A stretch of 64,000 bases of DNA from a virus: positions 1-64,000 of the IMG/VR virus record IMGVR_UViG_3300047409_000171; one strand, written 5' to 3'. Shown here in pieces: positions 9,408 to 62,404 of this stretch. The notes beneath the pieces were generated by a model, which made no database searches, was not told the DNA's origin, and saw only the letters and a program-made list of their open reading frames with translations. The translations under genes were made by a program, and so were the position numbers. The first letter of the stretch is position 1; each line of letters opens with the position of its first letter.

Positions 9408-10094
9408 ATGGCTACCGATAAAGTTATATCCCGAAAGGATGCGATGCAAAGGGGGCTTCGCCTGTACTTCACTGGCAAGCCATGCAAGCGAGGCCATGTC
9501 GCACATAGGGACGTTCCTGGTCGCGGGTGTGTGGTTTGCTCAGCGGAGCGAGCGGCATCTGACGCCGCAAAGAAAAGAAGCAAAGAATACAACTCCCGAC
9601 CAGATATTAAAGAGGCAAGAAAGCGGTACAACAAGAAGTACCATGCTGAGCGAGTTTGGACGGAAGAACATCGCGTTAAAGCATTGGCAGCGACCAATAA
9701 ATGGCGAAAAAACAATTTAGAAAAGGCTCGTGAGTTAGACCGCCAGTATGCGGCGAAGCGCGCGGATCAGCGTAGGGCCTACAATCGAGAGTATGCCAAG
9801 AGGAATGCAGAAAAACTCGCCACCAAAGAAAGAAATAAGCGAGCAATAAAACTTCGCAACGGCGGGCGGCATACTAAGGAAGATATAGCAGAAATCCTTC
9901 TTATGCAGCGCGGCAAGTGTGCTTATTGTCGTGTCAAACTCGGCAAAAAATATCACGTCGACCACATCATCCCATCTGTCAAAGGTGGCAGTAATGGTCG
10001 AGAGAACCTTCAAATTCTCTGCGCCTTGTGTAACCACAAGAAACACGCGCGAGACCCCGTTGAGTTTGCGCAGTCATTGGGATTTCTGCTATGA
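9408..10094 (+). CDS. HNH endonuclease (probable homing type)
   Basis: The 228-residue protein has an N-terminal module YFTGKPCKRGH ... CVVC that resembles a small zinc-binding fold. A long basic helical region follows, then an HNH domain at the C-terminus: CAYC, HVDHIIPSVKGGSNGRENL, LCALCNHKK. HNH nucleases cut or nick DNA using a metal held by the two His and Asn. Its place between head genes and its A/T-richer sequence fit a mobile homing nuclease. The downstream glycosyltransferase starts inside its stop. Confidence 0.78.
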   Translation: MATDKVISRKDAMQRGLRLYFTGKPCKRGHVAHRDVPGRGCVVCSAERAASDAAKKRSKEYNSRPDIKEARKRYNKKYHAERVWTEEHRVKALAATNKWRKNNLEKARELDRQYAAKRADQRRAYNREYAKRNAEKLATKERNKRAIKLRNGGRHTKEDIAEILLMQRGKCAYCRVKLGKKYHVDHIIPSVKGGSNGRENLQILCALCNHKKHARDPVEFAQSLGFLL

Positions 10095-11020
10095 GATTAG
10101 TCGTAAGTTTAGCAACGAGAGGCAGACCGGATCGCCTCGTCGACACTATAACCAAATCGTATGCGAACTGGACCGATCCCAACACGGTGATGCAGGTTCA
10201 ATTGGATGCGGATGATCCTACGCTGGATGAAGCGAAGGCAAAATTGAATGACCTCCCTTGCGTTCTGGATAATCGAGTTCTTCTCAACGTCCAAGAGCGA
10301 GAAACAACAATTGCAGCCAAGTGGAACCGGGCTCTTGACGTACCCGGCGACGTCTACCTTGTCGCAGCCGATGACGATCCCTATTGCAGTCCGGGATACG
10401 ACACCAAGATCATAGAGGCCGCCAAGCGGTTCCCTGACGGCATCGGCATGGTTTACGGCCACCTCGCCAACCTGTCGTTCTCCGGTGCCGTAGCCCCCAC
10501 CAGCAAGTTCTGCGAGCTGATGGGCGGCAAGATATTCCCCGAGTATTTCCCATACTGGTTTGTCGACCACTGGACCGACGACGTTGCGCGAATCATTGGC
10601 CGGCTGTCGTTTGCTGCGGTCAAGACGGACCAATCGCGCCCGGGTGTGACGCAGGAGATGCGGGAGCCTGGGTGGTGGGCTACGTGGTTTGACGCGGCTT
10701 ACTTGATGCGGCGCAAGCAGGCGCATGATATCATCAACAGTCCCGATTTTGTGGACGAGTCATGGCACAAGCAGTTACTGCTGACTCACCATCCGCTGAT
10801 CGAAGTCCGTTCGCGCATGATCAACCAGAACGTCCGCCAGCAGAACGCGCAGCTATCGCAGTGGGCGGGCAATTTGAAGCCTGACGAGCGGTACAACCGG
10901 ATTAAGCAGCGGGCGATTGATATGGTGCCGTCGTTGCTGAACGACTACGGGATGCCTGCGCAAGAGCAGGATATGTTCGCCCGCGCGCTGTTGGGCAAGA
11001 CGCTGGAGAGGGCGGCATGA
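10091..11020 (+). CDS. Glycosyltransferase-like protein (GT-A fold)
   Basis: The 309-residue protein opens with a beta strand RLVVSLATRGRPDRL, typical of nucleotide-sugar binding GT-A enzymes. It carries VYLVAADDDPYCSPGY near residue 95, which has the acidic D-x-D metal site. A later part, EPGWWATWFDAAYLMRR, and a helical tail complete it. It would transfer a sugar from a nucleotide donor. Donor and acceptor are unknown. The adjacent sugar genes suggest a heptose-like donor; that is inference. Confidence 0.65.
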   Translation: MRLVVSLATRGRPDRLVDTITKSYANWTDPNTVMQVQLDADDPTLDEAKAKLNDLPCVLDNRVLLNVQERETTIAAKWNRALDVPGDVYLVAADDDPYCSPGYDTKIIEAAKRFPDGIGMVYGHLANLSFSGAVAPTSKFCELMGGKIFPEYFPYWFVDHWTDDVARIIGRLSFAAVKTDQSRPGVTQEMREPGWWATWFDAAYLMRRKQAHDIINSPDFVDESWHKQLLLTHHPLIEVRSRMINQNVRQQNAQLSQWAGNLKPDERYNRIKQRAIDMVPSLLNDYGMPAQEQDMFARALLGKTLERAA

Positions 11021-24680: not shown

Positions 24681-24754
24681 GGACCACAAGCATTAAGGTG
24701 ATGCACCGGCCTCTTAACCCGGGGAACACGGATCGTTACCGTGGTGGTCCACCA
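24681..24754 (+). tRNA. tRNA-Lys (CTT)
   Basis: Acceptor GGACCAC/GTGGTCC, discriminator A, CCA encoded. D stem GCAT/ATGC. Loop CTCTTAA gives CTT. It has the same C-C at 31-39 as the first Lys tRNA, and T stem CACGG/CCGTG. Confidence 0.72.
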
Positions 24755-24761
24755 TTTCTAT

Positions 24762-24835
24762 GCGGCTATAGTTCAAAGGCAGATCGCCCGGTTGTCAACC
24801 GGAGGACGGGGGATCGATACCCCCTAGCCGCGCCA
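24762..24835 (+). tRNA. tRNA-Asp (GTC)
   Basis: Acceptor GCGGCTA/TAGCCGC, discriminator G, CCA encoded. Stem CCCGG with loop TTGTCAA gives GTC. G73 fits Asp. Confidence 0.85.
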
Positions 24836-24836
24836 T

Positions 24837-24912
24837 CTCTGCGAAGCTCGTGCAGGAAGAGCACCCGCCTTGGAAGCGGGAGGTCGGTGGTCGGAGCACC
24901 GCGTGGAGACCA
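24837..24912 (+). tRNA. tRNA-Pro (TGG)
   Basis: Acceptor CTCTGCG/CGTGGAG with two G-T pairs, discriminator A, CCA encoded. Stem CCCGC/GCGGG encloses CTTGGAA, giving TGG. A37 replaces the G usual in Pro tRNAs. Ser(GGA) is excluded by the short variable loop. Confidence 0.68.
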
Positions 24913-24916
24913 ATTC

Positions 24917-24992
24917 GGGCGTTGAGCCAGATGGGACGGCCGGCTGCTCATAACAGTCAGAGGACGGGGTTCGATTCCCCGACGGTCCACCA
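24917..24992 (+). tRNA. tRNA-Met-type (CAT)
   Basis: Loop CTCATAA in stem GGCTG/CAGTC gives CAT; T arm CGGGG-TTCGATT-CCCCG is regular; CCA is encoded. The acceptor GGGCGTT/ACGGTCC has two mismatches. It could be elongator Met or an Ile tRNA modified at C34. Confidence 0.65.
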
Positions 24993-24997
24993 TTTAT

Positions 24998-25073
24998 TCC
25001 CGTAGAGCCATCTAGGTGAGGGCGGCCGGCTGTTAACCGGCGAAGGCGCGTTCGAATCGTGCTGCGGGAGCCA
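24998..25073 (+). tRNA. tRNA-Asn (GTT)
   Basis: Acceptor TCCCGTA/TGCGGGA, G73, CCA encoded. Stem GCCGG/CCGGC with loop CTGTTAA gives GTT. T arm GCGCG-TTCGAAT-CGTGC. Confidence 0.87.
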
Positions 25074-25077
25074 ACAC

Positions 25078-25151
25078 GCTGCTATCGTCTAATGGAAGGA
25101 TGCTGGTCCCTCAAACCGGCGGTGCGGGGTCAGAACCCGCTAGCAGCTCCA
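25078..25151 (+). tRNA. tRNA, probably Glu (CTC)
   Basis: Acceptor GCTGCTA/TAGCAGC, CCA encoded. Loop CCCTCAA in stem CTGGT/ACCGG gives CTC, but position 33 is C, not T, and the discriminator is T, as in Gly tRNAs. The D-arm sequence (ATCGTCTAATGG) also recalls Gly and Gln tRNAs. Identity is uncertain. Confidence 0.6.
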
Positions 25152-25152
25152 T

Positions 25153-25231
25153 ACTCGCGTAACCGGCCGTGATTACGAATCACAGGAACCGTAACTGGAG
25201 CATGGGAGTTCGACTCTCCCCGCGAGTGCCA
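25153..25231 (+). tRNA. Atypical tRNA-Arg-like (ACG), D arm missing
   Basis: Acceptor ACTCGCG/CGCGAGT, G73, CCA encoded, and a regular T arm GGGAG-TTCGACT-CTCCC. The anticodon hairpin (loop TTACGAA, anticodon ACG) starts only about 15 bases in, so no D arm fits. About 19 bases follow it before the T arm and contain a near repeat of the lead segment (TAACCGG and TAACTGG). Confidence 0.5.
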
Positions 25232-25238
25232 TTTTCAT

Positions 25239-25315
25239 CTGCGTGTAGCTCAGTCAGGTAGAGTACACCCCTCGGAAGGGTGGGGCCGCAGGATCGAAGC
25301 CTGCCACGCAGACCA
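25239..25315 (+). tRNA. tRNA-Pro (CGG)
   Basis: Acceptor CTGCGTG/CACGCAG, A73, CCA encoded. D stem GCTC/GAGT. Stem CACCC/GGGTG with loop CTCGGAA gives CGG. A37 again, as in the other Pro tRNA here. Confidence 0.82.
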
Positions 25316-25318
25316 TTT

Positions 25319-25388
25319 TGCGGAGACCAAGGCGGTAAGTCCGGCTCTGAACCGGATGAAGTGGGATCGTGCCCTACCTCCGCAGCCA
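25319..25388 (+). tRNA. tRNA-Gln (CTG)
   Basis: Acceptor TGCGGAG/CTCCGCA, G73, CCA encoded. Stem TCCGG/CCGGA with loop CTCTGAA gives CTG. The D arm is short, total length 70. Confidence 0.8.
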
Positions 25389-25392
25389 ACAC

Positions 25393-25467
25393 GGCGCATT
25401 GTCAGAGCGGTCATGTGCTCGCCTGCAAAGCGATGCTAGGGGTGTTCGACTCACCCATGCGCCTCCA
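25393..25467 (+). tRNA. tRNA-Cys (GCA)
   Basis: Acceptor GGCGCAT/ATGCGCC, T73 as expected for Cys, CCA encoded. Loop CTGCAAA gives GCA. Confidence 0.85.
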
Positions 25468-25468
25468 C

Positions 25469-25550
25469 ACCCCGGTAGCCGGAGCGATCTTCTAAATCGT
25501 CACCCGTAGCGGAGCTGAAATCGCGTGTTCGAATCACGCTCGGGGTGCCA
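25469..25550 (+). tRNA. Atypical tRNA-Arg-like (TCT), D arm missing
   Basis: Acceptor ACCCCGG/TCGGGGT, G73, CCA encoded, T arm GCGTG-TTCGAAT-CACGC. The hairpin GCGAT-CTTCTAA-ATCGT (anticodon TCT) begins 15 bases in, leaving no D arm. A 22-base segment follows, with a near repeat of the lead (TAGCCGGAGC and TAGCGGAGC). It has the same design as the gene at 25153. Confidence 0.5.
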
Positions 25551-25551
25551 T

Positions 25552-25628
25552 CTTGCCGTCGCCCAACTGGAGAGGGCCTCCGTCTCCTAAACGGATGTGT
25601 CGGTGTTCGAGTCACCGCGGCAAGGCCA
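25552..25628 (+). tRNA. tRNA-Arg (CCT)
   Basis: Acceptor CTTGCCG/CGGCAAG, G73, CCA encoded. D stem GCCC/GGGC. Stem TCCGT/ACGGA with loop CTCCTAA gives CCT. A fully regular cloverleaf, in contrast to the two other Arg genes. Confidence 0.85.
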
Positions 25629-25633
25629 ATTCT

Positions 25634-25722
25634 GGTGAACTAAGCGGGTGGGACCCGTCCTCGTTTGCTAAACGAAGGGCACCTCAAAAAGGTGTGAGAA
25701 TCGTGCTCTCAGTTCACCGCCA
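25634..25722 (+). tRNA. tRNA-Ser (GCT)
   Basis: Acceptor GGTGAAC/GTTCACC, G73, CCA encoded. Loop TTGCTAA gives GCT. A long variable arm forms CACCT/AGGTG, as required for Ser. Length 89. Confidence 0.85.
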
Positions 25723-25726
25723 ATCT

Positions 25727-25801
25727 GCAGGTATGGGTCATTGGTTGATCGTCAGCCTTCCAAGCTGTTCCAAGGGAGTTCGATTCTCCCTGCCTGCTCC
25801 A
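25727..25801 (+). tRNA. tRNA-Gly (TCC)
   Basis: Acceptor GCAGGTA/TGCCTGC, T73 as in Gly tRNAs, CCA encoded. Stem TCAGC/GCTGT with loop CTTCCAA gives TCC. Confidence 0.85.
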
Positions 25802-25802
25802 C

Positions 25803-25877
25803 GGAGCCTTCGTCTACTGGCTAGGATCACGGTTTTTCACACCGTAGGAACGGGATCGATACCCGTAGGCTCTACCA
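25803..25877 (+). tRNA. tRNA-Glu (TTC)
   Basis: Acceptor GGAGCCT/AGGCTCT, A73, CCA encoded. Stem ACGGT/ACCGT with loop TTTTCAC gives TTC. Confidence 0.83.
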
Positions 25878-25882
25878 ATTAT

Positions 25883-25956
25883 GGCCGGTTCGTTTAGTGA
25901 CAGGACGCGAGGCTTTGAATCTCGCTGCGGTGGTTTGATTCCATCACCGGCTGCCA
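25883..25956 (+). tRNA. tRNA-Gln (TTG)
   Basis: Acceptor GGCCGGT/ACCGGCT, G73, CCA encoded. Stem CGAGG/TCTCG with loop CTTTGAA gives TTG. Confidence 0.83.
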
Positions 25957-25957
25957 A

Positions 25958-26028
25958 CCCGATGCCTCCGGCGAGGACGCAGCCCTCATAAGGCTGCCAG
26001 CCCTGATCGACACAGGGCTTCGGGACCA
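25958..26028 (+). tRNA. tRNA-Met-type (CAT), second copy
   Basis: Acceptor CCCGATG/CTTCGGG with one mismatch, A73, CCA encoded. D stem CCTC/GAGG. Stem CAGCC/GGCTG with loop CTCATAA gives CAT. It differs widely from the CAT tRNA at 24917, so one of the two may read Ile AUA. Confidence 0.78.
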
Positions 26029-26039
26029 ATTATTTTTAT

Positions 26040-26117
26040 GCTGGTCATGCTCGACGGCAATGAGCACGCCGACTGTGAATCGGTGGGACAGGGATTCGAC
26101 TTCCCGGGCCAGTACCA
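26040..26117 (+). tRNA. tRNA-His (GTG)
   Basis: Acceptor GCTGGTC/GGCCAGT with an outer G-T pair, A73, CCA encoded. Stem GCCGA/TCGGT with loop CTGTGAA gives GTG. The usual G-1:C73 pair of His tRNAs is not evident. Confidence 0.8.
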
Positions 26118-26122
26118 AATTT

Positions 26123-26197
26123 GGGAGTGTGGTGAAGCGGTATCATGCCGGTCTCCAAAACCGTGCGTCTCGGGTTCAAATCCTGACACTCTCGCCA
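26123..26197 (+). tRNA. tRNA-Trp (CCA)
   Basis: Acceptor GGGAGTG/CACTCTC, G73, CCA encoded. Loop CTCCAAA gives CCA. Last tRNA of the array. Confidence 0.85.
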
Positions 26198-27699: not shown

Positions 27700-28614
27700 T
27701 TGCCCGTAAGTCTCGCAAACATTCGCTCAGAGTTGCTTCCTGGGTTGTTCGACGTTCGCGGTAGCTATGATATGATACCGCGCCAATTTGACAAAGTTTT
27801 CAAAACCCACAAGTCATCCATGGCTGTCGAGCGATCGACCCAGATGGCGTTCGTGGCGCTGCCGTACCTCAAGGATGAGGGCGCCGCGACTCAGTTCGAC
27901 AACAACGCTGGCGAGCGGTTCACCTGGGCCTTCGTGCATATCGAAGTGGCTCTTGGCTACGCGATCACCCGCAAGGCCATCGATGACAACCTCTACAAGG
28001 CGCAGTTCAACCCGACCAACCTGAAACTCCAGGAGGCGTTCGCGCAGTTCAAGGAAATTCAGGCGGCGAACATCTTCAACACTGGTACCACATACAACGC
28101 GCAGCAGGTTGGCGACGGCGTTGCGTTTTTCTCGACGTCCCATCCGTATGACGGCGGCACGTGGGCGAATACCTCATCGACGCCGAAGTCGCTGAACGAA
28201 TCGACGCTGCTGGCGAACATGACCAACGTCCGCACCCAGTTCGTCAACGAGCGCGGTATGCGTATCCTGTCTCGCGCGCGTCGGCTGGTCGTTCCGCCGA
28301 ACCTCGAGGCCATCGCCATCCGCCTGACCAAGACAGAGCTCCGACCAGGCACGGCGGACAACGACGTCAACGCGATCCTGTCGCTATCTGGCGGATTGCC
28401 GGAAGGCTTCATCGTTCTGGACTTCCTGACCTCGAACTTCGCGTGGTTCCTGACCACGAATATCGAGGGGCTCATCCACATGCTGAGAATACCATATGAG
28501 TCTGATATGTGGGTGGACAACGTCACAGATAATTTACTTGTGAAATCCTATGAAAGATATTCATTCGGTATCAACGACCCCCGTTGTGCTTGGGGCGAAT
28601 ATCCGACGGCCTGA
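27700..28614 (+). CDS. Major capsid protein
   Basis: The 304-residue protein fits the Mu gpT-type HK97 fold: RGSYDMIPRQFDKVFKTHKSS, a GERFTWAFVHIEVALGYAITRKAI core, IQAANIFNTGTTYNAQQVGDG, SRARRLVVPPNLE (P-domain edge) and IPYESDMWVDNVTDNLLVKSYERYSFG at the end. It would form the icosahedral shell. Translation starts at TTG 27700 after an AAGGGGAGG box; no ATG is suitably placed. The short leader probably reflects insertion of the HNH gene. Confidence 0.85.
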   Translation: MPVSLANIRSELLPGLFDVRGSYDMIPRQFDKVFKTHKSSMAVERSTQMAFVALPYLKDEGAATQFDNNAGERFTWAFVHIEVALGYAITRKAIDDNLYKAQFNPTNLKLQEAFAQFKEIQAANIFNTGTTYNAQQVGDGVAFFSTSHPYDGGTWANTSSTPKSLNESTLLANMTNVRTQFVNERGMRILSRARRLVVPPNLEAIAIRLTKTELRPGTADNDVNAILSLSGGLPEGFIVLDFLTSNFAWFLTTNIEGLIHMLRIPYESDMWVDNVTDNLLVKSYERYSFGINDPRCAWGEYPTA

Positions 28615-55229: not shown

Positions 55230-55711
55230 TGCGGATCGTCGGGGTAGACCCCGGCCGAAAGGGAGCCCTCGCGTTTGTTCGCGGGGGTGTTATTTGTGAC
55301 GTAATCGACGTTCCCCTGATGCCGGACAATTCTCAGGTCCAGGTTGACGGAAAACGGCTATGCAAATGGATCGAATCGGTCCTGCCGATCGACGTCGTGG
55401 TTATTGAGAACGTCCAGCCGATGCGCGGGACCGGCGACGATAGCGAGGGGATGCCCTCGGGCAATTCGTTCCGGTTCGGCCTGATCGCCGGCGAGCTCCG
55501 GATGGCGTTCAAATGCTACGGTGTGCCGATCCGGCTGGTGACGCCGGGCCAATGGAAGCGGCATTTTGGGCTTTTGAAACAGAAGAAAGCCGCATCGAAG
55601 GCGAAGCTGCTGGCGATCCGGCCCGGTGCCGGAGCATTTGTGCGGCGGATCGATTCGGCTGAGGCTGCGCTGCTGGCGCTGTTTGAGGTGGAAAGGCGGG
55701 GGATGTTATGA
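55229..55711 (+). CDS. RuvC-like Holliday junction resolvase
   Basis: The 160-residue protein shows the RNase H fold of RuvC: VGVDPGRKGALAFV (first acidic residue), VVVIENVQPMRGTG (second) and IDSAEAALLALF (last Asp). It would resolve branched replication or recombination DNA before packaging. It starts one base inside the previous stop. Confidence 0.8.
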   Translation: MRIVGVDPGRKGALAFVRGGVICDVIDVPLMPDNSQVQVDGKRLCKWIESVLPIDVVVIENVQPMRGTGDDSEGMPSGNSFRFGLIAGELRMAFKCYGVPIRLVTPGQWKRHFGLLKQKKAASKAKLLAIRPGAGAFVRRIDSAEAALLALFEVERRGML

Positions 55712-56409
55712 ACCTTACAGAAGCAAGATCAATCGTGGGAACGCTTAGTTTCCCGTCTAAAATGCCAGGAACTGCATTCGCCATTTCAGCGGCACTATGC
55801 ATTGCTGGATCAAAATTGGCTAAAGTCGTCGGCAGCACCTGCCATGGATGCTACGCGCTCCGAACCCACTACATTCGGGCTAATCCGCAGAAAGCCATGC
55901 GAAAGCGAATGGCTGGCCTTTCGGATACCCGATGGGTAGAGGCTGTGGTGACGCTGCTTCGTCACAAGCATAGTTTCCCGGAGTTTCGTATTGATCTTGG
56001 CATTCGTGATGCGAAGGCGAGGGGTCTCCAGCGCTGGCGCATGAACGCTTCAGGCTGGCACAGATGGCACGACAGCGGCGATCTGCAAGGCGTTTGGCAT
56101 CTTGCCAAAATCTGCGAGGTTGCAGCGCAAACACCTAAAATCCGGCATTGGCTGGCGACGCGCGAAACGCAGATGGTTCTGGACTATGTGAGCGGCGGCG
56201 GGATCATCCCGAACAATATGGTGATCCGCGTATCTGCCGCGATGGTCGATAGGCCGCCGCCGAAAGCGTGGCCATTGACTTCGACCGTACATGATCTGGT
56301 TATGCCATCCGGACACATTTGCCCTGCACCGGAGCAGAACCATGAATGCGGATCGTGCCGCGCGTGCTGGTCTAAAGACGTGGCTAACGTGAGCTACCAA
56401 AAGCACTAA
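55708..56409 (+). CDS. Cys-rich conserved phage protein
   Basis: The 233-residue protein has FPSKMPGTAFAISAALCIAG, CHGCYALRTHYI, RWHDSGDLQGVWHLAKICEV, HWLATRE and CGSCRACWSKDVANVSY. The clustered Cys and HDSGDLQ fit a conserved phage family related in layout to the gp37/gp68 (DUF5131) group. Activity is unknown. A metal or Fe-S site is possible. Confidence 0.62.
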   Translation: MNLTEARSIVGTLSFPSKMPGTAFAISAALCIAGSKLAKVVGSTCHGCYALRTHYIRANPQKAMRKRMAGLSDTRWVEAVVTLLRHKHSFPEFRIDLGIRDAKARGLQRWRMNASGWHRWHDSGDLQGVWHLAKICEVAAQTPKIRHWLATRETQMVLDYVSGGGIIPNNMVIRVSAAMVDRPPPKAWPLTSTVHDLVMPSGHICPAPEQNHECGSCRACWSKDVANVSYQKH

Positions 56410-56938
56410 AATCAATAGGTAGTATGCCGCCGTAAATTTTTTCTATTTGTTGGGCTTGCCCAACTAGCCGAATCGGCTTCAAATGCCACAAAGCCGCCAC
56501 GGGTGCGTCCGCAGCGGCTTCGGGTAACACCGCGCAGACTTTTGAGACGGGATGCGCAGCCAGAGCAAGATATAGGCGAATTAGCCGAATTGCTCAACCC
56601 CCAAATCCCGTCAGCCCGGACTAGTTCCGACTGAGCCAAGTCAATCCACAAAAATCGCACTGGTCCGGCAGGCTATCCGGGGAAGAAGCGGGCGGGCACT
56701 TACCATGCTTTGCATGGGTTCCGACCGTGACAGTTGTGGACTAGCAGGCTGTCAGAAACCACGGCCACTTATGGCGTTTTCGTTCCCAATCCGGAGGGAA
56801 TAGTCCGGGGCCAGACGAGGTGGCGCTCGCTAAAACGCACCGTGGTTATACCCGCTATCTAGTCGTCTCAACCGCATGGCCTACTAACCCTAGTGTCGAA
56901 AGGCAGCAAAGAGAGGGGTTAGGTAGATAGGCCAGACG
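56410..56938 (+). ncRNA. Long structured non-coding region upstream of dnaB
   Basis: No convincing gene lies here. Clear helices include GTTGGGC/GCCCAAC (56449-56464), AGCCG/CGGCT (56466-56478), AAGCCGC/GCGGCTT (56491-56520), GACGGGAT/ATCCCGTC (56546-56553 with 56605-56612), CCATGC/GCATGG (56703-56717), TTCCC/GGGAA (56783-56800) and AGACGA/TCGTCT (56813-56868). The last is TGGCCTACTAACCC with GGGTTAG and TAGGCCA (56877-56934), 14 pairs with a five-base bulge. The density suggests a functional RNA or a replication origin. Confidence 0.5.
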
Positions 56939-56971
56939 TTGCGGAAACGGACCTATGGGAGAAAGGACTTT

Positions 56972-58417
56972 ATGAAGCGCGAAACCCCAGCCCAGTACGG
57001 CCCGCACGACATCCAAGCCGAACAGGAATTGCTTGGGTGCTTGCTGCTATACAACAAGACGCATCAATTTATTTCCAGCATCGTTCACCCAGAGCATTTC
57101 TTTGAGCCCATTCACCAAGAAATATACGACATCTGCGGCAAACTCATCACAATGGGCAAGCCAGCGACGCCGACGACGGTCAAGACGTTCCTGCCGGCCG
57201 ATCTCATGATTGCGGAAGGAATGTCGGTTGGGAAGTACCTCGCGAAGCTGGCGGCGAGCGCCACCACCATGATATCGGCGCCAGACTTCGCGGGCATCGT
57301 GCGGGATTTGGCCGACTATCGGGCGATCATGTCCGTGGTCGAGATGGCTGCGGCCGTGAAGGGAATCGACAGTGACCCCGGGAAAGCAGCAACAGCGGCA
57401 ATCGACATGCTGGACGCCATCGTGGCCGAGCGGACAATAGGGAATGTGCCTTCCCTGACGCTAGGAGCGTCCGTAGTGCGGGCTGTGGACGCCGCGGCCA
57501 AGGCTTACCAGAACGACGGCGCGCTCACCGGCATGCCCTACGGGCTCAGGGATTTGGACCGTAAAACCTCCGGACTAGCGAAGGGCGAATTGACGATCTT
57601 GGCGGGACGCCCGGGGATGATGAAAACCGGACTGGCGCTGAATTTCTGCCGCTCACTCGGGAAGGCTGGGCACAAGGGGATATTTTTCAGCCTTGAGATG
57701 GGCGACGAATCGCTGAGCCGGCGGATGATATCGGACATGCTTTTCGACCGGTACGAGCTCCCGCATTTCCGGATGAAGGCTGGGAGCATCAACGAGCAGG
57801 ATTTTGGTCGCATGACGGAGGCGGCCAAGGAATTGAACGATCTGCCGCTGCGGATTGAGCAGCAAACTGGGCTTTCGATATCGCAGATTGCGTCCCGGGC
57901 CCGGCAGATGAAGCGACGCGAGGGACTGGACTTCATCGTGGTCGACCACATCGGCCACGTCGCGGTCGAGGATCGCTACCGCGGCAACCGCAACAACGAA
58001 ATCGGCGAGATCACCAAGGGGCTGTTGCGGCTGGCCCGCGAACTGGACGTCGGCATGGTCGCGTTGTGCCAGCTATCTCGAGGTGTGGAGAGTCGGGAAA
58101 ACAAGAAGCCATCGCTTGGCGATTTGAGGGATTCGGGCGAACTTGAGCAGGACGCTGCGACGGTGATGTTTGTCTACCGGGAAGCCTACTACTTGGCGAA
58201 CAAGGAGCCGCGCGCGGGTACCGCCGAATACGAGGTTTGGCAGGCTGAGATGACGCGCTGCATCAACGATCTTGAAATTATCATATCGAAACAAAGGGAT
58301 GGTGCCGTGGGCACGGTGCGATGCTACGTCGACGTGACGACCAATGCTGTGCGTGAGCAGGGTTGGACGCGCGATGCGTGGAGCAATTTGCCAGACGGCG
58401 ACAGGTTTGAATTCTGA
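56972..58417 (+). CDS. dnaB: Replicative DNA helicase, DnaB-like
   Basis: The 481-residue protein has a DnaB N-terminal domain (AEQELLGCLLLYNKTHQFIS) and a RecA-like core: ILAGRPGMMKTGLALNFCRS as Walker A near residue 212, IFFSLEMGDESLSRRMIS, FIVVDHIGHV as Walker B, and ALCQLSRGVESRENKKP. The Walker A Gly before Lys is Met here (GRPGMMKT). It would unwind phage DNA ahead of the fork. ATG 56972 follows an AGAAAGGAC box; an in-frame TTG lies at 56939. Confidence 0.88.
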   Translation: MKRETPAQYGPHDIQAEQELLGCLLLYNKTHQFISSIVHPEHFFEPIHQEIYDICGKLITMGKPATPTTVKTFLPADLMIAEGMSVGKYLAKLAASATTMISAPDFAGIVRDLADYRAIMSVVEMAAAVKGIDSDPGKAATAAIDMLDAIVAERTIGNVPSLTLGASVVRAVDAAAKAYQNDGALTGMPYGLRDLDRKTSGLAKGELTILAGRPGMMKTGLALNFCRSLGKAGHKGIFFSLEMGDESLSRRMISDMLFDRYELPHFRMKAGSINEQDFGRMTEAAKELNDLPLRIEQQTGLSISQIASRARQMKRREGLDFIVVDHIGHVAVEDRYRGNRNNEIGEITKGLLRLARELDVGMVALCQLSRGVESRENKKPSLGDLRDSGELEQDAATVMFVYREAYYLANKEPRAGTAEYEVWQAEMTRCINDLEIIISKQRDGAVGTVRCYVDVTTNAVREQGWTRDAWSNLPDGDRFEF

Positions 58418-60479: not shown

Positions 60480-60680
60480 ATGAGCCAAACCAGCATAGCG
60501 GCAGAGATCGCCACCCGCACCGCAGCGGCAGAGCGCAAACTGGCGGTGGCTCTCGGCCACGACGCGATCGACGTTTTCGATCTGTGGAGCCGGGCCTATT
60601 TCGAGACGTTCAATCGGGCATGGGACGCACCGCGCCCGGCTGTGAACCTGCCCCTCCGGATGATCGGAAACATGACGTGA
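60480..60680 (+). CDS. Hypothetical early protein, 66 aa
   Basis: A helical product starting MSQTSIAAEIATRTAAAERK, with YFETFNRAWDAPRPA near the end. It overlaps the next gene's GTG start. The function is unknown. Confidence 0.5.
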   Translation: MSQTSIAAEIATRTAAAERKLAVALGHDAIDVFDLWSRAYFETFNRAWDAPRPAVNLPLRMIGNMT

Positions 60681-62404
60681 CGCAGCCAATTCCAGACGCA
60701 GCGCTTGATGATCGGTTGGGCTTTGTCGGCACGGCCGGATCAGGCAAGAGCTACAACGCCATGGGCCGCGTCGAGCGGCTGCTGTCGCGCAAGGCGCGCG
60801 TGTGCTGCGTCGATCCGCTCGGGGTATTCTGGGGATTGCGCCTGGATGCAGACGGCAAATCACCGTCCGGTTTCAACATTCCTATTTTCGGCGGACCGCA
60901 CGGTGACTTGCCGCTGACGGAACATTCCGGCGCCTTGATCGGCGAGACCGTGGCCGGCATGGCGGAATCCTGCATCATTGACCTGAGCGAAATCGGCACC
61001 AAGGCTGGCGAACGTCGGTTCATGCTTCATTTCCTCACGGCACTGTACCGCAAGGCCAACGGCGAGCCGCTGCACCTCGTCATTGACGAAGCGGATATGT
61101 TCGCGCCGCAGAAGATCAACGACAAGGAAGGCGAGGCCGCGAAGCTGCTCGGCATGATGGAGACCGTGGTCAGGCGTGGGCGTATCAAGGGCTTTATCCC
61201 ATGGCTGATTACCCAGCGGCCGGCAGTGATCGCCAAGGACGTTCTCAGCCAAGTTGACGGGTTGGTGGCGTTCAAGCTCACGAGTTCGCAGGATCGCGAC
61301 GCGATCAGCGCATGGGTCGAAGGCTCGGCCGACAAGGACGATTGGAAGGCCATGCGCGGCGCGCTGCCGGCGATGGAACGCGGCCAAGGCGTGGTGTGGA
61401 TCCCTGGGCGCGGGATCATGGAGACGGTCCGATTCCCGGAAAAATTCACGTTCGATTCGTCCCGCACGCCGAAGCGCGGCGAGAAGAAATCGGCGGCGGC
61501 GCTGAAACCACTGGACCTCGGCTCGCTCAAGGAGCGGCTGGCGACCGTCGACGCGGAGACCAAGGCGAACGACCCCAAGGCGTTGCGCGCGCGGATTGTC
61601 GAGCTTGAGCGGCAGAAGGCGACCACGCCACCGTCGGCAATCTTTGCGGCATCAAATGCAACTGCTCGAGCAGAAGGAGACCGCGCCGGATTTGAGCGTG
61701 CGGACCGCCAATGGCATGGCGTGATGACGGCGCCATGGGCCGCGTTCACCAATGCGTGGCAGTCCTACGAACAGTCGCGCGACCGTTTGAACGATGCAAT
61801 CCGCGAAATCTCGCATGTTGTCGATGTGGCGTTGCAATACCGCGCGCCGCCGAAATCGGGCTCGCCAGCCATCCCGGCACCAGCCCCGAAGCGCGCGCCG
61901 CTCGCCCCAGCGGTAGTGCGCAAACCGTCTCCTGCGGCGAATGGGGACGGTAGCCTTCCCAAGGGTGAGCGCCTGTGCCTGACCGCAATCGCGCAGAACA
62001 GCAACGGCATCACCCGCCAGCATTTGACCGTTGTCACCGGTTACAAGCGGTCGACTAGGGATGCCTATATCCAGCGATTGCGGGAGAAGGGCTGCGTTGA
62101 TGAGCGCGGTAGCCGTCTCTACCTGACCGACGCTGGCGGCGAAATGCTTGGCCCGTTTGACCCGCTGCCGACCGGTGCCGCGCTGCAGGATCACGTCCTT
62201 GGCACGTTGCCAGAAGGCGAGCGCGCCGTGCTGGCACTCATCATCCCCGCCTATCCCAACGGCGTCGATCGCGATACGATCAGCATCGAAACCGGCTATA
62301 AACGGTCCACGCGGGACGCCTATATTCAGCGGCTCAGCACTCGGGAATTGGTCGATGCCAGCCGCGGTGGCGTCGTGGTCGCATCGCAGGATTTGTTCGC
62401 ATGA
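60677..62404 (+). CDS. HerA/VirB4-like ATPase with tandem winged-helix repeats
   Basis: The 575-residue protein has Walker A (FVGTAGSGKSYNAM, residues 17-30), Walker B (LHLVIDEADMFAP, near 133), and a LITQRPA segment. This is the set of HerA/VirD4-type pump ATPases. A coiled-coil linker follows, then two winged-helix repeats that share TGYKRSTRDAYIQRL (near 453 and 539). It may move or process DNA. GTG 60677 overlaps the prior stop. Confidence 0.75.
   Translation: MTQPIPDAALDDRLGFVGTAGSGKSYNAMGRVERLLSRKARVCCVDPLGVFWGLRLDADGKSPSGFNIPIFGGPHGDLPLTEHSGALIGETVAGMAESCIIDLSEIGTKAGERRFMLHFLTALYRKANGEPLHLVIDEADMFAPQKINDKEGEAAKLLGMMETVVRRGRIKGFIPWLITQRPAVIAKDVLSQVDGLVAFKLTSSQDRDAISAWVEGSADKDDWKAMRGALPAMERGQGVVWIPGRGIMETVRFPEKFTFDSSRTPKRGEKKSAAALKPLDLGSLKERLATVDAETKANDPKALRARIVELERQKATTPPSAIFAASNATARAEGDRAGFERADRQWHGVMTAPWAAFTNAWQSYEQSRDRLNDAIREISHVVDVALQYRAPPKSGSPAIPAPAPKRAPLAPAVVRKPSPAANGDGSLPKGERLCLTAIAQNSNGITRQHLTVVTGYKRSTRDAYIQRLREKGCVDERGSRLYLTDAGGEMLGPFDPLPTGAALQDHVLGTLPEGERAVLALIIPAYPNGVDRDTISIETGYKRSTRDAYIQRLSTRELVDASRGGVVVASQDLFA

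Follow-up and report, generated by a model that had tools for sequence, protein, structure and literature searches.

An apparently uncatalogued large structured non-coding RNA, a candidate accessory cassette of tailed phages

The stretch of viral DNA analysed here, referred to as the window, covers positions 1 to 64,000 of the virus record IMGVR_UViG_3300047409_000171 in IMG/VR, which is 70155 bases long. An intact GP88-family gene (55708-56409) is followed on the + strand by the gene of a full-length DnaB-like replicative helicase (56972-58417; PF03796, PF00772 and phrog_19), whose natural start is the ATG at 56972. No plausible gene was found between them (56410-56971), where the longest + strand frame encodes 43 aa. 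An earlier sequence-only reading had described 56410-56938 as a helix-dense non-coding region, and this was borne out by homologues that show a conserved structure with two-sided compensatory changes. Its boundaries had to be shifted, however. The conserved element, a large structured RNA on the + strand (56490-56965), extends from about 56490, with its first hairpin P1 at 56491, to about 56963-56965; in its first 80 bases, the earlier interval contains nothing but a weak promoter-like site, and it stops short of the RNA's last 25 bases. The 5' end was placed from the promoter-like site and the 3' end from where conservation stops, which gives a size of about 440-475 nt in the family and leaves the helicase gene outside the RNA as its downstream neighbour.

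Several other features of the window were recorded. Fourteen tRNA genes lie at 24681-26197 in the order Lys, Asp, Pro, Met, Asn, Glu, Pro, Cys, Arg, Gly, Glu, Gln, His and Trp, and a related phage contig, G001, has none. The major capsid proteins of the window (27700-28614) and G001 (9836-10750) are 88% identical, compared to 27-61% for nearly all other shared proteins, which suggests that the capsid gene was recently exchanged or is under strong constraint. A DUF5131 protein encoded at 58344-59183 matches the PADLOC candidate defence families PDC-M41B and PDC-M30B, and its gene contains the sole stretch between 45 and 64 kb for which megablast found similarity to a named phage (Xanthomonas phage CP2). 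The product of 60584-62404 is a HerA-like ATPase of 606 aa whose C-terminus resembles a winged helix; it matches several HerA models as well as a profile for phage terminase.

Homologues of the RNA were found at three other loci in IMG/VR. L001 is a 65% identical non-coding stretch in the dnaB region of G001 (2266-2733, E 5e-37), the one related phage contig recovered with the helicase as probe. L003 in contig G002 (3340-2870 on the - strand, E 3e-33) and L026 in contig G004 (10930-11390, profile E 7e-36) were obtained from exact-motif scans of IMG/VR. The pairwise nucleotide identities of the four family members are 59-77%, the highest value being that of L001 and L003. About 127 bases from the start of G002 (L038-L040; 57864 bases) recur at its end, and this contig is therefore probably a complete genome. 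L007-L025 and L027-L029 were chance matches to one motif, within genes where checked. The scan of genome contigs for copies returned L005 only, a pattern match in a Terriglobia MAG, which is situated in what looks like the gene of a conserved enzyme and does not have the remainder of the RNA. No homologue was detected among isolated phages by blastn of INPHARED with the window, L003 and L026 RNAs, or among plasmids by blastn of PLSDB with the L003 and L026 RNAs. MW202675, which among named relatives is the closest in its capsid protein, does not carry the RNA.

The neighbouring genes differ from copy to copy. The RNA is flanked by the GP88 and dnaB genes in the window, by a DUF7768 gene and a small ORF followed by dnaB at L001, by DnaA-like and HTH regulator genes at L003, and by a 90-aa ORF and the major capsid gene at L026, and all four copies run in the same direction as the neighbouring genes. 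The placement before the helicase gene that was pointed out earlier is thus correct for the window and fails as a general link, because dnaB is near two of the four copies only. Two phages whose helicases are related have no such RNA upstream of dnaB, where their genes abut. No protein partner common to all four contigs was found, although one could be missed because G004 is a 20.7 kb fragment. The L001 and L003 RNAs are the closest pair (77%) although the window and the L001 contig have far more of their genes in common, and the RNA has therefore probably moved separately. Taken from these comparisons, the RNA is best described as an accessory element, separate from dnaB.

The sequence-only reading had also considered a replication origin at this locus. 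An origin, or a primer RNA resembling ColE1 RNA II, would suit the three of four copies that lie in an early operon near replication genes (dnaB, or the gene of a DnaA-domain protein at L003). The L026 copy, however, is in a head-gene module, on a contig that has no detectable protein in common with the window phage. Iterons were looked for and none were found, in G001 and G002, the two contigs whose GC skew has a turning point in the interior, that point is not at the RNA, and relatives replicate without the RNA. The G+C content of the RNA is 53-59%, unlike an AT-rich unwinding region. The origin proposal is not supported by these results, and we regard it as hardly credible.

The structure was examined by comparing the four sequences. 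In ten helices, including three pseudoknots, 215 of 216 pairs form across the four sequences, and 31 of the 54 pairs changed on both sides with pairing kept. When the 3' strands were redistributed among the four sequences, 172 ± 7 pairs formed and 215 was never reached in 20000 trials, and complementarity in homologous places, with helices projected through a sequence-anchored alignment, exceeded that of shuffled windows with a combined p of 2e-10 for the window and 7e-10 for L026; both statistics are flattering, since the helices were chosen with all four sequences in view. The RNAalifold consensus energy, which is freer of this bias, had a z-score of -3.45, and none of 60 column shuffles was as good. 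An unbiased helix scan of a sequence-only alignment recovered P8 and PK-d only (shuffled alignments gave a mean of 0.33 and a maximum of 3 helices), because indels throw most helices out of register. Among the checks proposed with the original observation, folding against shuffled sequence gave little, with a z-score of -1.27 on the + strand, which is not significant, and a modest -2.65 on the - strand. Covariation with related phages, on the other hand, yielded compensatory pairs across four phage contigs. The proof of structure hence comes from the homologues, as the energy of the single sequence alone would leave the claim open. These comparisons showed that a compact predicted fold of at least thirteen helices and three pseudoknots is kept in four contigs with differing neighbours. 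Compensatory structure is combined here with no long reading frame in the window copy, as expected for a large structured non-coding RNA.

The following elements, apart from P1, are assigned to the + strand. The first hairpin, P1 (AAGCCG/CGGCUU, 56491-56520), has an invariant lower stem and an upper stem that pairs better on the - strand. In P2 (56532-56557), the stem is GCGCA/UGCGC in the window and CAGAU/AUCUG in the others, with two-sided changes at four of five pairs, and its loop feeds two pseudoknots. PK-b (56537-56642) joins GACUU at 56537-56541 with AAGUC at 56638-56642; the other sequences have GGCUU/AAGCC, and the family consensus is GRCUU with AAGYC. PK-c (56546-56612) joins GACGGGA at 56546-56552 with UCCCGUC at 56606-56612, and it consists of seven pairs in three sequences and five of six in L026, the L001 version being GCGGGC with GCCUGC. 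The stem of hairpin P3 (GAGCA/UGCUC with an inner GGY/RCC, 56563-56595) differs in sequence in every phage, and four of its five pairs changed on both sides. The P4 hairpin block, GCCCGGA-n-GUUCCGAYUGAGC (56614-56634), is the most conserved sequence of the RNA. Hairpin P5 (UCCGG/CCGGG, 56664-56681) is missing from L026.

The 3' domain is closed by the long-range helix P6 (56688-56855), in which GCGGG at 56688-56692 pairs with CCCGC at 56851-56855; GCGCG/CGCGC is found in L001 and L003 and GUGAG/CUCGC in L026. Hairpin P8 (56728-56754) has a 15-base loop, UUGUGGACUAGCAGG, which is invariant in three sequences, while four of the six stem pairs changed on both sides. Within this loop, GACUAG at 56739-56744 forms PK-d (56739-56864) with CUAGUC at 56859-56864, the consensus of the partner being CUAGUY. 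PK-d was guessed from three sequences, and L026, which was found later, has UGGUGA/UCACCG, with five of six pairs changed on both sides. P9 (56759-56845) pairs CCACGG at 56759-56764 with CCGUGG at 56840-56845, the variants being CCAAGG/CCUUGG in L001 and L003 and UACGGG/CCCGUA in L026, and it encloses the variable hairpins P10 (56783-56800) and P11 (56816-56829). Near the 3' end are P12 (CCGCA/UGCGG) and P13 (UGGCCUA/UAGGCCA), which together span 56872-56944, followed by a conserved tail, CUAUGGRGAA (56953-56963), that is retained in all four copies.

A promoter-like site on the + strand (56456-56483) consists of TTGCCCA, a 13-base spacer and GCTTCAAA, and is placed at -35 from P1. The promoter consensus of Caulobacter type is TTGACGS, 10-14 bases and GCTANAWC, and its two halves co-occur in the text of a Caulobacter paper (PMC8144410). 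In each of the four copies, a site at -34 or -35 from P1 was scored against this consensus and reached 13/14 in G004, 12/14 in G001, 9/14 in the window and 8/14 in G002. The first two sites are thus strong, and those of the window and G002 weak. The window site is weak alone, as 2.6% of genome positions score as well, but the joint score at one common offset was not matched in 2000 random placements (p < 1/2000). No consistent counterpart of these sites was found on the - strand (p 0.59 and 0.03). The common offset in all four copies suggests that transcription proceeds on the + strand from P1. The nearest named phages are those of Caulobacter and Sinorhizobium, and the host probably belongs to the Alphaproteobacteria, as judged from the promoter type and these phages only.

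The evidence on the strand is mixed, since P1 pairs better on the - strand. Its upper stem has A-C mismatches only on the + strand and is fully paired on the - strand in all four sequences, a summed gain of about 25 kcal/mol. P1 resembles a terminator on the - strand in L003 and L026, with a U-rich tail in both. The - strand also gives better energy z-scores against shuffles. These observations would fit a functional RNA that is transcribed from the - strand, begins near the tail and ends at P1 as an intrinsic terminator hairpin. The remaining helices favour the + strand, however. G-U pairs inside P8 (L001), PK-c (L001 and L003) and P6 (L026) become A-C mismatches on the - strand, and the helix energy sum without P1 is -497.6 kcal/mol on the + strand and -484.6 on the - strand. 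Such a - strand RNA would also have no consistent promoter and a poor U tract in the window and L001, and the four copies are co-directional with the adjacent genes. We therefore consider it improbable, and the functional RNA is very probably on the + strand. P1, at the start of the RNA, may be a conserved terminator of antisense transcripts or a block to antisense transcription. No terminator was found at the 3' end of the RNA, so that a separate transcript would depend on processing or on a stop that is not intrinsic.

The tail bears on whether the RNA acts in cis or in trans. In the window, L001 and L003, the next gene has its ribosome site in this tail, 8-10 bases ahead of the ATG, and the window tail contains the Shine-Dalgarno-like GGGAG. 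This position of GGRG is predicted for a cis-acting 5' leader, in which the mRNA would start at P1 and the fold would control whether ribosomes reach the Shine-Dalgarno sequence that its 3' tail contains, in the manner of a very large riboswitch or attenuator; the upstream promoter-like site and the missing terminator agree with such a leader, and riboswitch and ribozyme leaders likewise end in the ribosome-binding site of the next gene, as this RNA does in three of four phages. Unlike those leaders, the present RNA precedes unrelated genes (dnaB, a small ORF before dnaB, an HTH regulator and, at L026, a distant capsid gene) and interrupts no gene. At L026 the tail is retained, but no gene of at least 70 codons begins within about 250 bases, and the capsid gene that follows about 300 bases away belongs to another module and is not at riboswitch distance. 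A switch in which CUAGUY pairs either with the P8 loop or with a GACUA beside the tail was plausible in L001 and L003; the competing pairing is lost in L026, where PK-d is kept. The size and complexity of the RNA exceed those of the riboswitches known to us. A cis-acting leader, the main rival reading, is thus possible but unlikely, and action in trans is moderately favoured over it because the tail is kept in L026 without an adjacent gene and the next genes are unrelated.

Comparison with Rfam 15 assigned no family, whether the window was searched by cmscan at the gathering score or all four RNAs at E up to 10; matches at E up to 10 were to unrelated eukaryotic or bacterial RNA models, as expected by chance. 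Short stretches that resembled 23S rRNA or RNase P by eye were at about chance level. The size, the pseudoknots and the strongly conserved loops would suit a catalytic RNA such as a self-splicing intron or another ribozyme. No gene is interrupted, however, GP88 and DnaB being full length, no homing endonuclease lies alongside, and no Rfam intron or ribozyme model matched even at E 10, which makes a ribozyme of this kind very improbable. A group I intron, suggested by a GACUA/UAGUC resembling P7, was rejected because the helix order is unfit and there is no split gene. The family appears to match no catalogued RNA within Rfam 15 and the open-access literature, and may have been described earlier. 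The proposal of a large regulatory or structural phage RNA outside the known classes has accordingly gained support from the covariation in four contigs and the lack of an Rfam match.

The ROOL class is often found near tRNA islands, GOLLD is often longer than 800 nt and near tRNAs, and OLE is part of a membrane RNP in Gram-positive extremophiles. Like OLE, the present RNA is an ornate large RNA, of bacterial kind, but it has no match to the Rfam model. ROOL (Rumen-Originating, Ornate, Large) and GOLLD are large pseudoknotted phage RNAs without known partners; ROOL occurs in phages and prophages, one example being 659 nt, and GOLLD levels go up during lysis, with pull-downs showing that it binds ribosomes (PMC12286853). 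With ROOL, the present RNA shares that it is a large, multi-pseudoknotted phage RNA without a known protein partner, and with GOLLD that it is phage-encoded, large and unevenly conserved along its length. It differs from both in being smaller, in having no Rfam match and in its distance from tRNA genes: the window array (24681-26197) is 30 kb from the RNA (56490), and G001 has no tRNA. The likeness to ROOL and GOLLD, which are marked by a homo-oligomeric RNA nanocage, is hence one of architecture and habitat only; they appear nearest in kind, and the present RNA would be a member of neither.

With a little more than even confidence, we propose that these loci define an uncatalogued family of large structured non-coding RNA that is an accessory cassette of tailed phages and probably acts in trans. 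Transcription of the RNA would run on the + strand from a promoter that belongs to it, beginning at P1. By analogy with GOLLD and ROOL, and more tentatively, it may work in trans as a stable folded RNA that binds ribosomes, host factors or its own copies during infection. The likeliest working surfaces would be the exposed tail CUAUGGRGAA with its GGRG and the pseudoknotted 15-base loop of P8, and in three phages the next gene may have adopted this tail for ribosome binding. A bolder and rather doubtful extension is that the RNA represents a new class of large phage RNA that needs no protein of its own to work, whether as a ribozyme or as an RNA-only assembly that would engage the host ribosome through the Shine-Dalgarno-like tail, and that the promoter-plus-RNA cassette spreads by passing between phages.

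Very few large intricately folded RNAs are known beyond the ribosome, RNase P and introns, and two of the most striking, ROOL and GOLLD, come from phages and have yet to be assigned a function. The present RNA appears to add another independent family to these, of smaller size than both, with a promoter-like site and with a fold defined by covariation in four phages, and it is small enough for direct transcription, probing and imaging. Finding its function would help to explain why RNAs of this kind are carried by phages at all.
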